From contig NZ_JAIVFP010000001.1 of NCBI RefSeq assembly GCF_022760755.1, positions 1,220,001 through 1,284,000 of the forward strand: a DNA stretch of 64,000 bases. The letters are read 5' to 3'. Below, piece after piece: positions 18,849 through 28,569 of this stretch. The notes beneath the pieces are model-generated. The model worked only from the letters and a program-made list of their open reading frames with translations. It did not search any database and was not told the DNA's origin. The translations under genes were made by a program, and so were the position numbers. How positions within the stretch are numbered: position 1 is the first letter of the stretch; the number at the start of each line of letters is the position of its first letter. The DNA comes from Candidatus Rhodoblastus alkanivorans. GTDB lineage: Bacteria; Pseudomonadota; Alphaproteobacteria; Rhizobiales; Beijerinckiaceae.

Positions 18849-21800
18849 ATGACCAGCTCGATTGACGCCTCCATTCCCTTCCGCACAGCGGATCCCGCCG
18901 AGATCCTGTTCGTCGACGCGACGATCCCCGATCTCTCCACAGTTCTCTCGAACTTGCGCCCCGGCGTCGAGGCGGCGCTGCTCGACGCTGCCCGCCCCGC
19001 GGCGCGGCAGATCGCGGCGGCGCTCGCCGGCCGTGAAAGGCTCGAGGCTATCCACATCATGACGCACGGGGCGCCGGGTCGCGTCGCCTTCGCCGCCGGC
19101 GAATGGTCCGCCGCGACCCTACGTGATGACGCGGCGGATTTGGCGGCGATCGGCCGGGCCTTGCGCGACGGCGGCGAACTTCGCCTGTGGAGCTGCGAGA
19201 CGGCGGCCGGGCGGGAAGGCGACGCGCTTGTTTCGGCTTTGGCTGAAGCCTTGCGGATCGATGTGTTCGCCGCGCCCGCGCGTGTCGGAGCGCAAACACT
19301 TGGCGGCTCGTGGAAACTTTCGAACGGCAAGGACTCGCGTTTTGCTCGCCCGCCGCTGACAGAGGCCGGCGTTCAGCAATATTCCGGAATTTTAGATATC
19401 GAATACGCCGAGATTACGGCCAGTCTGACCGGTCCCACTGCACCGGGTCAAGGTAACTACTACATCCTTTTAGGAACCACTATCGTCGGCGAATTTGTCG
19501 TCCCGAACGGATCGAGTTTTACGGGAGATACGTTTAAAATTGTCGTTGTTGTCGATGTTCCCCCCACGACTCTAACAAGTGCATTTGTAATTGATAGTTC
19601 CAATGGAACGGACACTACAAGCAGTTTTACTTTCACTACAACGACCGTGCAGAGCGGGGTCGGCCCAACCGGACCCACCGGCGCGACGGGCGCGACCGGC
19701 GCAACGGGAGCCACCGGAGCCACGGGCGCGACCGGCGCAACGGGAGCCACCGGAGCCACGGGAGCGACCGGCGCAACGGGCGCAACCGGAGCCACAGGCG
19801 CGACGGGCGACACCGGCGCAACTGGAGCCACCGGCGCGACGGGCGACACCGGCGCAACTGGAGCCACGGGCGCGACGGGCGACACCGGAGCCACCGGAGC
19901 CACAGGCGCGACGGGCGACACCGGCGCAACTGGAGCCACGGGCGCGACGGGCGACACCGGCGCCACCGGAGCCACCGGCGCGACGGGCGACACCGGCGCA
20001 ACTGGAGCCACGGGCGCGACGGGCGACACCGGAGCCACCGGAGCCACAGGCGCGACGGGCGACACCGGCGCAACTGGAGCCACAGGCGCGACGGGCGACA
20101 CCGGCGCAACTGGAGCCACCGGCGCGACGGGCGACACCGGAGCCACCGGAGCCACCGGCGCGACGGGCGACACCGGCGCCACTGGAGCCACAGGCGCAAC
20201 CGGAGCGACGGGCGACACCGGCGCCACTGGAGCCACAGGCGCAACCGGAGCGACGGGCGACACCGGCGCCACTGGAGCCACAGGCGCGACGGGCGACACC
20301 GGAGCCACCGGAGCCACCGGCGCGACGGGCGACACCGGAGCCACCGGAGCCACCGGCGCGACGGGCGACACCGGCGCAACCGGAGCCACGGGCGCGACCG
20401 GAGCGACGGGCGACACCGGCGCAACTGGAGCCACCGGCGCGACCGGAGCGACGGGCGACACCGGCGCAACTGGAGCCACCGGCGCGACCGGAGCGACGGG
20501 CGACACCGGCGCCACTGGAGCCACAGGCGCAACCGGAGCGACGGGCGACACCGGCGCCACTGGAGCCACAGGCGCGACGGGCGACACCGGAGCCACCGGA
20601 GCCACCGGCGCGACGGGCGACACCGGCGCAACCGGAGCCACCGGCGCGACGGGCGACACCGGCGCAACTGGAGCCACGGGCGCGACCGGAGCGACGGGCG
20701 ACACCGGCGCAACTGGAGCCACCGGCGCGACGGGCGACACCGGAGCCACCGGAGCCACCGGCGCGACGGGCGACACCGGCGCAACCGGAGCCACAGGCGC
20801 GACGGGCGACACCGGCGCAACCGGAGCCACCGGAGCCACGGGCGCGACGGGCGACACCGGCGCAACCGGAGCCACCGGCGCGACGGGCGACACCGGAGCC
20901 ACCGGAGCCACCGGCGCGACGGGCGACACCGGCGCAACCGGAGCCACCGGCGCAACCGGAGCCACCGGCGCGACGGGCGACACCGGCGCAACTGGAGCCA
21001 CGGGCGCGACCGGAGCGACGGGCGACACCGGCGCCACTGGAGCCACAGGCGCGACGGGCGACACCGGAGCCACCGGAGCCACCGGCGCGACGGGCGACAC
21101 CGGCGCAACCGGAGCCACCGGCGCAACCGGAGCCACCGGCGCGACGGGCGACACCGGCGCAACTGGAGCCACGGGCGCGACCGGAGCGACGGGCGACACC
21201 GGCGCAACTGGAGCCACCGGCGCGACGGGCGACACCGGAGCCACCGGAGCCACCGGCGCGACGGGCGACACCGGCGCCACTGGAGCCACAGGCGCAACCG
21301 GAGCGACGGGCGACACCGGCGCCACTGGAGCCACAGGCGCGACGGGCGACACCGGAGCCACCGGAGCCACCGGCGCGACGGGCGACACCGGAGCCACCGG
21401 AGCCACCGGCGCGACGGGCGACACCGGCGCAACCGGAGCCACGGGCGCGACCGGAGCGACGGGCGACACCGGCGCAACTGGAGCCACGGGCGCGACCGGA
21501 GCGACGGGCGACACCGGCGCAACTGGAGCCACCGGCGCGACCGGAGCGACGGGCGACACCGGCGCCACTGGAGCCACAGGCGCAACCGGAGCGACGGGCG
21601 ACACCGGCGCCACTGGAGCCACAGGCGCGACGGGCGACACCGGAGCCACCGGAGCCACCGGCGCGACGGGCGACACCGGCGCAACCGGAGCCACCGGCGC
21701 GACGGGCGACACCGGCGCAACTGGAGCCACGGGCGCGACCGGAGCGACGGGCGACACCGGCGCAACTGGAGCCACCGGCGCGACGGGCGACACCGGAGCC

Positions 21801-26811: not shown

Positions 26812-28569
26812 ATGGCGTTCGTTGATCGGTTAATTGGCCTCGCTTCGCCCAAAGCGGCGTTGCGGCGCGCCATCGAACTCACCGAGCAGCGCCGCTTTGT
26901 CGAAGCCTTTCCTCTTCTTTCGGTGGCGGCGCGGGCCGGAATTGACGACGCCGACTATCGGATCGCCTTGGCCTATTTCCGGGGTCTTGGAGTTCCTGCC
27001 TGTCAATCCGAGGGCGTCGATTGGCTGCGAAAAGCGGCGGAGCGCGGTAGCGTCGAGGCTCAGGTGACTCTGGGAGTCCTTTGTCTGCATGGACTGGCTG
27101 GCGGCGAAGAAGCGGATAAAGCCGTGGAAGCTCCTGCGACGAGCCGGCTTTTTGCAACTGTCGCATTGCGGGAGCCGGATTTCAAATCCGCCATGAAATG
27201 GGCGCGCATGGCAGCTGATACTGGTTCTGGCGAAGGCCAGGCGCTCGTCGGTTATCTCCGGACCCATGGGCCGGAAGGAATGCGCGACCTCGAGGACGCG
27301 CATCGCTGGTACGGGCTCTCTGCGAGCGGCGGGTGCCCGCAGGGCGCGCTTGGTTATGCGCTCTCGCTGCTCCAGCGCGCGTCCGACGAGGCCACGCAGC
27401 GTGAGGCGGCTGTGCACCTTCGGCGGGCGGCCGAGGCTGGTCTGCCGACCGCGATCCATTTGCTGGGCTCAGTCACGGAACACGGAATCGGCGTGACGCG
27501 CGATTCACACGCCGCCACTGAACTGTATCGGCGCGCCGCCGAAGGCGGCGTACCTGCCGCTCAGGTTCAGTGGGGACGGGCGCTCATCGAGGGACGCCAC
27601 GTCAGGAAGGATCCGATAACTGGCGAATCCTGGTTGCGCCGCGCTGCACTGGCGGGCGATTCCGAAGCGGCGGCCGCACTCGGCGATCTCTACAGCCGCA
27701 ATGGCGCGTCGTCGGGCGATTATGCCGAGGCGGCGATTTGGTATCGAAAAGCGGCGGAATCCGGCCACCGAGCCGCCGCCAAAGCGCTTGGAACGCTTTA
27801 TCTGACCGGCGCTGGGGTCGCCCGCGACGAGAGCGAAGCCACGAATTGGTTGAGGATCTCGGCGGACGCCGGGGACTGCTCGTCGCAAGTCGATCTCGCA
27901 AATCTCATTCTGAAGGGCGGTGGAAACGCCGACGACCCGAGCAGAATCATCGGCTGGTTCGGACAGGCAGCGACGGCGGGCGACCCTGTCGCCGCATTCA
28001 ATCTCGGGCTTTGCCTGGTCAAGGGCTTTGGCGTCGCGCGCGATGAGGCGCTCGCGATGCAGTGGATGCGATGGGCGGCGGAAGCCTTGCCGGAAGCCCA
28101 GCACGCCTATGCCCAGATGTTGGCCGAAGGCGTCGTCGCGCCGGCGGATCCGCGAGGCGCTCGGTCCTGGTTCCACATGGCCGCCGATGCGGGAATAATG
28201 GACGCGCAAGTTTCCCTCGCGGAAATGATGCTGAACGGCCGCGGTGGCCCTCGCGACATTCACGGCGCTGTCGCCTTGTTCGAGAAGGCGGCGGCCAAAG
28301 GCCACGGCGGCGCGATGTTCGCGCTGGGAGCCGTCCATGGCGGCGGCCACGGCTTGCCCACGAACCGCGCCGTCGCCGAGCGCTGGTTTCACGCCGCGGC
28401 GGAAGCTGGCCACGCAGAGGCGCGGCTTATGCTCGCAAAATATTTAGCCGACGGCGTCGCAGGCGAGCGCGGCCGCGCGGAAGCGCGTTCCTGTTCTGAA
28501 CGCGCGGCGCCGCCCGCCGTCACTCGCCCCGGTTCGGAGGCTCCCGGAGAAAATTCGAAGGATATGTAA
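26812..28569 (+). CDS. Sel1-repeat protein
   Basis: 585 residues made almost wholly of Sel1-like (SLR) helical repeats of ~36 residues, with motifs such as A-x-x-x-L-G-x-x-Y, G-x-G-V-x-x-D-x-x-x-A and W-x-x-x-A-A-x-x-G from about residue 45 to 560 (about fourteen repeats). There is no signal peptide. Sel1 repeats are protein-interaction scaffolds. It starts 48 bases after the HlyD gene with AAGGA just upstream, so it is probably the last gene of the secretion operon. A role in chaperoning or regulating the giant substrate is inference. Confidence 0.88.
   Translation: MAFVDRLIGLASPKAALRRAIELTEQRRFVEAFPLLSVAARAGIDDADYRIALAYFRGLGVPACQSEGVDWLRKAAERGSVEAQVTLGVLCLHGLAGGEEADKAVEAPATSRLFATVALREPDFKSAMKWARMAADTGSGEGQALVGYLRTHGPEGMRDLEDAHRWYGLSASGGCPQGALGYALSLLQRASDEATQREAAVHLRRAAEAGLPTAIHLLGSVTEHGIGVTRDSHAATELYRRAAEGGVPAAQVQWGRALIEGRHVRKDPITGESWLRRAALAGDSEAAAALGDLYSRNGASSGDYAEAAIWYRKAAESGHRAAAKALGTLYLTGAGVARDESEATNWLRISADAGDCSSQVDLANLILKGGGNADDPSRIIGWFGQAATAGDPVAAFNLGLCLVKGFGVARDEALAMQWMRWAAEALPEAQHAYAQMLAEGVVAPADPRGARSWFHMAADAGIMDAQVSLAEMMLNGRGGPRDIHGAVALFEKAAAKGHGGAMFALGAVHGGGHGLPTNRAVAERWFHAAAEAGHAEARLMLAKYLADGVAGERGRAEARSCSERAAPPAVTRPGSEAPGENSKDM

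Follow-up and report, generated by a model that had tools for sequence, protein, structure and literature searches.

The subject of this analysis is a gene for a collagen-like protein of Candidatus Rhodoblastus alkanivorans, together with the genes around it, in a 64,000-nucleotide stretch of the 4.35-Mb genome of this organism (G000 in our set; NCBI RefSeq assembly GCF_022760755.1, contig NZ_JAIVFP010000001.1, positions 1,220,001 to 1,284,000 of the forward strand). This stretch, at its full length, is called the window here, and all coordinates are positions in it. A forward-strand operon of five open reading frames (ORFs) encodes two proteins with a DUF4347 domain, the second of which carries a long Gly-X-Y tract, followed by a type I exporter, its adaptor, and a Sel1-repeat protein; a divergent cluster of glycosyltransferase genes (7502-14902) lies upstream. 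All five operon ORFs and the three glycosyltransferase ORFs were found to be open. With confidence somewhat above even, we read this arrangement as one that produces a collagen-like protein, glycosylates it and secretes it by a type I system. Its features are as follows.

17831-18769, + strand: P0001, a short DUF4347 protein of 312 amino acids without a collagen tract, tandem upstream paralogue of P0002 (DUF4347 match of 132.7 bits)
18849-22445, + strand: P0002, the DUF4347-collagen protein, 1198 amino acids (open ORF and Pfam matches)
18903-19394, + strand: DUF4347 domain of P0002 (His73 codon at 19065-19067, Cys116 codon at 19194-19196)
19662-21983, + strand: 258 Gly-X-Y triplets of P0002, 257 of them Gly-X-Thr (residue count, tandem repeats)
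21984-22442, + strand: His-rich linker and C-terminal region of P0002, a candidate uncleaved type I export signal
22525-25260, + strand: P0003, a HlyB-like ABC exporter (Pfam, NCBIfam)
25363-26763, + strand: HlyD-type periplasmic adaptor (TIGR01843, 350.8 bits against a cut-off of 208.65)
26812-28569, + strand: Sel1-repeat protein, which accompanies the exporter in relatives (Pfam, relatives)
7502-9040, - strand: glycosyltransferase group 1-like protein (below the Pfam cut-off)
9040-10179, - strand: GT2-family glycosyltransferase with weak TPR matches (Pfam; 74-76% identity to four relatives)
10196-14902, - strand: multidomain enzyme of 1568 amino acids (Pfam, orthologues)
14854-15171, - strand: short ORF with 58% identity to P0010 of Mesorhizobium ciceri, over residues 2-78 of the latter (sequence match)

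In P0002, DUF4347 (PF14252, residues 19-182) scored 126.7 bits against a cut-off of 24.6, and Collagen (PF01391) 370.2 bits against 27.2. The tract occupies residues 272-1045, with Ala (200), Asp (56) or Pro (2) at the X position, Thr (257) or Ser (1) at Y, and no Lys. A preliminary description of this DNA had reported a 1198-residue protein with an N-terminal DUF4347 domain and a poly-His segment, followed by ABC, HlyD and Sel1 genes and devoid of a Sec signal and of RTX repeats, and all of this was borne out: the His-rich stretch is a tandem CATCAC array (21987-22024), a simple hydropathy scan detected no Sec-like hydrophobic stretch at the N-terminus, and no RTX family (calcium-binding nonapeptide repeats) occurred among the Pfam matches at E 0.1. 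The '258 uninterrupted Gly-X-Thr' triplets of that description are indeed 258 and unbroken, but one of them ends in Ser. The tandem DUF4347 gene P0001 and the linked glycosyltransferase cluster were overlooked in it, and these are, we think, the omissions that matter most.

The composition of the tract is unusual, with only two prolines in 258 triplets; for bacteria overall, a review puts Pro at 19% of the X positions and Thr at 31.6% of the Y positions (PMC8968730). The third bases vary (GGC 163 times and GGA 95 times for Gly, and four codons for Thr), while Gly is never replaced; thus, what is conserved is the protein sequence and not just a DNA repeat. Past the first 16 triplets, Asp at X recurs every 4, 5 or 6 triplets (36, 17 and 2 times, respectively), a regularity that none of 10000 random placements reproduced by staying within 4-6 triplets. 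Across the whole genome PF01391 matched in 18 places, 17 of which are inside the tract, and the one elsewhere is below the cut-off. Three NCBIfam models, of the Scl/SclB and Lcl type, also matched P0002 through the tract, at 318, 306.1 and 298.6 bits, against cut-offs of 325, 400 and 500. In the tracts of the relatives described below, almost every Y position is likewise Thr, and X is mostly Ala or Ser.

The exporter P0003 aligned to the HlyB model (TIGR01846) from its third position; among the NCBIfam models listed, this one ranked first, although the score of 530.4 bits falls below the cut-off of 725.55. Its residues 1-153 (22525-22983) were unmatched, and relatives align from residue 154 or later; the N-terminal ~150 residues are either an added domain or the result of a wrong start, and the start is uncertain. 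The C39-like region (residues ~185-320) contains no Cys. Since HlyB also lacks this Cys and its substrate stays uncleaved (PMC8277102), an uncleaved C-terminal export signal is likely for P0002 by analogy. No gene for an outer-membrane factor was seen in the cluster; in the whole genome, 14 OEP-family matches were located in seven open frames.

To follow the arrangement in other genomes, we used a profile, designated A2, made from six DUF4347 heads of the collagen type, which for this reason favors such heads. At most 6 or 7 first-look candidates per genome were scored, and the order, class, phylum and family samples overlap. Scores above 250 bits were obtained in five of 397 genomes of the order (G000, G331, G495, G420 and G557), and all five have a Gly-X-Thr tract with ABC, HlyD and Sel1 homologues close by, which in G557 lie on the opposite strand and in a different order; the G420 tracts hold runs of N. 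Four lower-scoring genomes, G399 (211 bits), G408 (196), G565 (176) and G564 (164), had no tract of at least 15 triplets in the 20-kb regions. The same threshold was passed by the own genome alone among 385 genomes of the class, and by G000, G331, G420 and G495 among 349 of the phylum. An adjacent DUF4347 pair was found in two of 199 family genomes, namely the own one and G066, in which the tract of the second gene runs up to the contig end.

In all nine loci with enough context, the collagen gene adjoins ABC, HlyD and Sel1 homologues. These loci are the window, G331, G495, G420, G557, and plasmids of M. ciceri R30, CC1192 and WSM1284 and of Mesorhizobium sp. WSM1497, the last four being closely related. 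The idea of a dedicated exporter, raised in the preliminary description, thereby gains genomic support. M. intechi is a further named relative, and a single-protein search of genome contigs gave one relative. Related DUF4347 proteins are also encoded at four IMG/VR loci (L133-L136), with tracts on those of L135 and L136; in L133 a collagen ORF is cut off and spans at least 1396 amino acids. At L136, upstream of the DUF4347 gene, an ORF at ~3273-4349 (- strand) resembles, by the look of its sequence, an IS605-type TnpB. A one-off arrangement is ruled out by this recurrence in Mesorhizobium, in genomes of the order, and at IMG/VR loci.

Among the plasmids, the collagen gene spans the record start in three of four. 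Tracts of 97 triplets were counted in R30 (99 by another count), 229 in CC1192, 102 in WSM1284 and 134 in WSM1497, the last three summed over two record ends; the counts are low because the counting pattern drops Pro and Arg at X as well as short runs. Tract length thus differs about two-fold among related plasmids (97 to 229; L041, L045/L189, L190/L196 and L191/L197), which suggests length change by repeat recombination.

A DUF4347 domain does not as a rule predict collagen. The domain is present on many large open frames in genome searches, and the notion that it usually comes with collagen was rejected, as none of 88 other examined loci has a tract of at least 10 triplets; it is to be noted that L046-L048 in this set are not DUF4347, at least four places were counted twice, and most had just a 1.5-kb flank. 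In Azospirillum sp. TSA2s (L042, 12823-19845), a giant DUF4347 protein adjoins curli assembly genes (CsgG-like and CsgF).

The exporter, in turn, extends beyond collagen. P0003 matched 1103 plasmid records at E 1e-50, of which four beyond Mesorhizobium were inspected; ABC-HlyD-Sel1 genes were found in two Azospirillum plasmids and one Gluconacetobacter plasmid (L193, L195 and L192) and ABC-HlyD in one Niveispirillum plasmid, none with a tract of at least 10 triplets within the fetched stretch. Thus, ABC-HlyD-Sel1 would be a wider export module, with collagen as its cargo in one branch.

Among the sugar enzymes, the 1568-residue one combines a GT2-like start (below the Pfam cut-off), an Stf0 sulfotransferase, a DXD glycosyltransferase and an O-methyltransferase-like end. 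When the 397 order genomes were searched with this enzyme (P0012), scoring at most two candidates per genome, only four exceeded 1000 bits (the own genome, G331, G420 and G495), and all four are among the five that hold the collagen gene. The three orthologues are 68-71% identical over both halves, and the next scores were 370 bits for a second copy in G420 and 319 bits elsewhere. In G066 and M. intechi, too, the long enzyme is encoded in the vicinity of the collagen gene, and partial matches lie near a DUF4347 gene in L134 (no visible tract), L135 (residues 26-323 only) and L136. In its relatives, whose open frames are 1279-1312 amino acids long, the match ends at residue 700-761 and resumes at 1032-1049, with nothing between; the sulfotransferase part seems to be specific to the window enzyme.

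A different enzyme, P0010, lies near the collagen gene in M. ciceri. It has GT2, Anp1 and GT25 matches above cut-off, and its residues 404-804 match procollagen galactosyltransferase 1 with an E of 1.1e-41, and part of the protein also matches LH3 (E 2e-15). G331, G420 and G557 each have matches to the GT25 part at a distance of no more than ~10 kb from the collagen gene. None of the three window sugar enzymes shows a membrane span at a hydropathy threshold of 1.6, the 1568-residue one coming close (1.57), which argues for glycosylation in the cytoplasm.

On these grounds, the product of the locus is probably a Thr-rich collagen-like rod, O-glycosylated in the cytoplasm. The soluble glycosyltransferases (7502-14902) would add sugars to the Y-position Thr of the ~257 Gly-X-Thr triplets, and in this organism the sugars may also be sulfated and methylated. 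The adjacent ABC/HlyD pair would then export the protein in one step, probably by an uncleaved C-terminal signal and with an outer-membrane channel encoded elsewhere, while the Sel1 protein may hold or recruit the substrate. Outside, the chains would form a rod, triple-helical or mucin-like, which the Thr sugars would stabilize or hydrate; more speculatively, processing or anchoring of the protein may fall to the DUF4347 head, which has the conserved His/Cys pair. As precedents, galactosylated Thr is said to contribute to the stability of Riftia collagen (PMC10141479), and BclA is glycosylated (PMC8968730).

Several observations weigh against this reading. The C-terminal region, alike among the Mesorhizobium-like members, is in the window only 19-31% identical to that of the relatives. 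A search for full-length orthologues of the long enzyme gave none in G557, where at most two candidates were scored, and none on the M. ciceri plasmids; matches to the GT25 part were absent from the flanks fetched for G495 and G066 and from the M. intechi contig; and the window genome keeps just a fragment of the GT25-type gene, from its other end, the GT25 part being unmatched in the genome. Linkage between the collagen gene and sugar enzymes thus holds, but which of these enzymes are present varies by lineage. Moreover, the two Azospirillum triads, which have no collagen tract, are surrounded by rhamnose and GDP-fucose genes, and the Gluconacetobacter triad also lacks a tract, so that the sugar enzymes could serve the envelope. 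Glycosylation may even be unnecessary, since a (Gly-Ala-Ser)n tract is reported to be triple-helical in Bucl8 of Burkholderia (PMC8277102).

The most serious competitor, which we regard as possible although clearly less probable, takes up these last points: an unglycosylated collagen-like protein would be secreted by the type I system, and the nearby glycosyltransferases would make surface polysaccharide or modify other proteins. The Azospirillum triads and the reported triple helix of proline-poor (Gly-Ala-Ser)n (PMC8277102) agree with it, as do the DUF4347 proteins with long non-collagen stretches that share the neighborhood in L133, L134 and L136. It does not account well for a long glycosyltransferase that is found at full strength solely in collagen genomes (4 of 397), or for the procollagen-galactosyltransferase homologue near the gene in M. 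ciceri. In a further alternative, the collagen protein would stay in the cytoplasm, and the exporter would act on the short DUF4347 protein or on something else. This is very improbable given the triad beside the collagen gene in nine of nine loci, even though triads without a collagen tract exist and, at the six other loci checked, the collagen gene is preceded by one for a separate protein that contains the domain found after DUF4347. Decay of the locus in this genome, as an import flanked by insertion sequences (IS) and with little present function, has to be weighed as well in view of the following mobile elements.

15471-16919, - strand: transposase (DDE_Tnp_1_4), separating the glycosyltransferases from the DUF4347 genes (family match)
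29006-30112, + strand: transposase with integrase core, right flank (family match)
30841-33146, - strand: IS21 pair beyond the right-flank transposase (family match)

Transposases thus flank the operon on both sides, the GT25-type gene is reduced to a fragment, and the tandem DUF4347 pair is absent from all nine other listed genomes of the own genus. Nonetheless, the five operon and three glycosyltransferase ORFs are open, and not one Gly has been replaced in 258 triplets despite varying third bases, which makes decay an unlikely explanation. Farther out, near the glycosyltransferase cluster, the window encodes a caspase-family (Peptidase_C14) protein of 721 amino acids (3923-6088, - strand). 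PF02461 (methane monooxygenase) found no match in the own genome, but no control genome gave one either, so that this result is uninformative about methylotrophy, a trait that the preliminary description assigned to the organism and that was not confirmed.

Comparison with known systems places the proposed glycosylated and secreted protein among familiar types. BclA of the Bacillus exosporium is a glycosylated Gly-X-Y protein, according to a review (PMC8968730); the window protein shares the Gly-X-Y repeat and, by prediction, the glycosylation, and differs in a tract with Ala or Asp at X and Pro in 2 of 258 triplets. Collagens of the BclA type have other non-collagen domains and are not known to have a type I exporter. 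The Scl/SclB and Lcl adhesins are the source of the NCBIfam matches, through the tract, but all scores are below the cut-offs and the window protein bears a DUF4347 head instead. Bucl8 shares the feature of a collagen-like tract, of Gly-Ala-Ser, which is reported to be triple-helical (PMC8277102); however, Bucl8 is itself a TolC-like outer-membrane protein, whereas in the window a DUF4347 protein carries the tract and the exporter is encoded separately next to it. RTX secretion by HlyB/HlyD resembles the present system in the alignment of the ABC protein to the HlyB model from its start, in the C39-like region without Cys and in the above-cut-off HlyD, and differs in that here the substrate has no RTX match, the exporter falls short of the TIGR01846 cut-off and a Sel1 gene is added. 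Lastly, COLGALT1/GLT25D1 is matched by residues 404-804 of M. ciceri P0010 (E 1.1e-41). The animal procollagen galactosyltransferase acts on hydroxylysine (PMC6602307), while Lys does not occur in the window tract and of the gene just a fragment is present in the window genome.

The DUF4347 heads deserve separate consideration. PF14252 has two matches in the whole genome, P0001 and P0002; P0001 (132.7 bits against 24.6) is 42% identical to the N-terminal part of P0002, in which Cys116 is the sole Cys. In 101 distinct DUF4347 domains collected with profile A2, 93 retain the His of a His-Gly motif, 98 the Cys and 92 both, with a spacing of 43 or 44 residues in 87 of these 92. By sequence, DUF4347 thus carries a His-Gly and then a Cys, as peptidases of the caspase clan (CD) do. 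Among sequences of the same bacterial family, the motif pair was detected in 15 of 25 for C14 and in 6 of 10 for CHAT; the spacing there is mostly 50-53 (15 of 15 and 4 of 6), and hence different. In a comparison with the CHAT profile, only the Cys motif aligned (E 0.029, probability 1.7%); the positive control of CHAT against C14 gave an E of 1.5e-4 and 51%. The score of 22.7 exceeded unrelated controls (10.3-17.7) and was reached by none of 40 column shuffles; C14, however, also beat its shuffles (0 of 40), yet through a non-equivalent region, which makes the shuffle control a weak one. A search of the PDB with the DUF4347 profile retrieved chain 9qpe_G, named a DUF4347 domain-containing protein (E 4.7e-5); designed TIM barrels in the same search were taken as spurious. 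The idea of a caspase-like peptidase is a lead.

The frame preceding the collagen gene is also of note. In six other loci (G331, G495, G420, G557, R30 and CC1192) it encodes the domain that comes after DUF4347; in five of them the putative product is ~100 residues long and lacks DUF4347, and in G557 it includes the tail of a DUF4347; in the window and in G066 it is a full DUF4347 protein. It may represent a conserved small partner in assembly. The boldest version of our reading, a self-contained route in which Thr is O-glycosylated by cytoplasmic enzymes (in M. ciceri including a relative of procollagen galactosyltransferase), export is by a dedicated type I system, and DUF4347 is a caspase-like, possibly self-cutting peptidase, is put forward only tentatively and is unlikely to hold in all its parts.

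The preliminary description knew of no such arrangement. Single genes of it are already annotated in Mesorhizobium and other genomes of the order, where it recurs; no paper on such a locus was found in the open-access literature, most subscription papers being beyond the search. It is, then, a recurrent variant of two known kinds, glycosylated bacterial collagen and type I secretion, that was not found described in the open-access literature. If the proposed reading is true, the locus would offer a compact genetic system for testing the effect of Thr glycosylation on collagen folding, the way in which a type I exporter copes with a low-complexity chain of great length, and the role of DUF4347; a near-pure Gly-Ala-Thr collagen would also be of interest to biomaterials work. 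Of the four Mesorhizobium plasmid strains, whose sources are chickpea and Biserrula (Astragalus pelecinus), three are on record as nodule isolates; in our judgement, these strains should be workable hosts. The gene set, much of it shared with some root-nodule bacteria, suggests that this organism and those bacteria may have a sugar-coated bacterial collagen in common.

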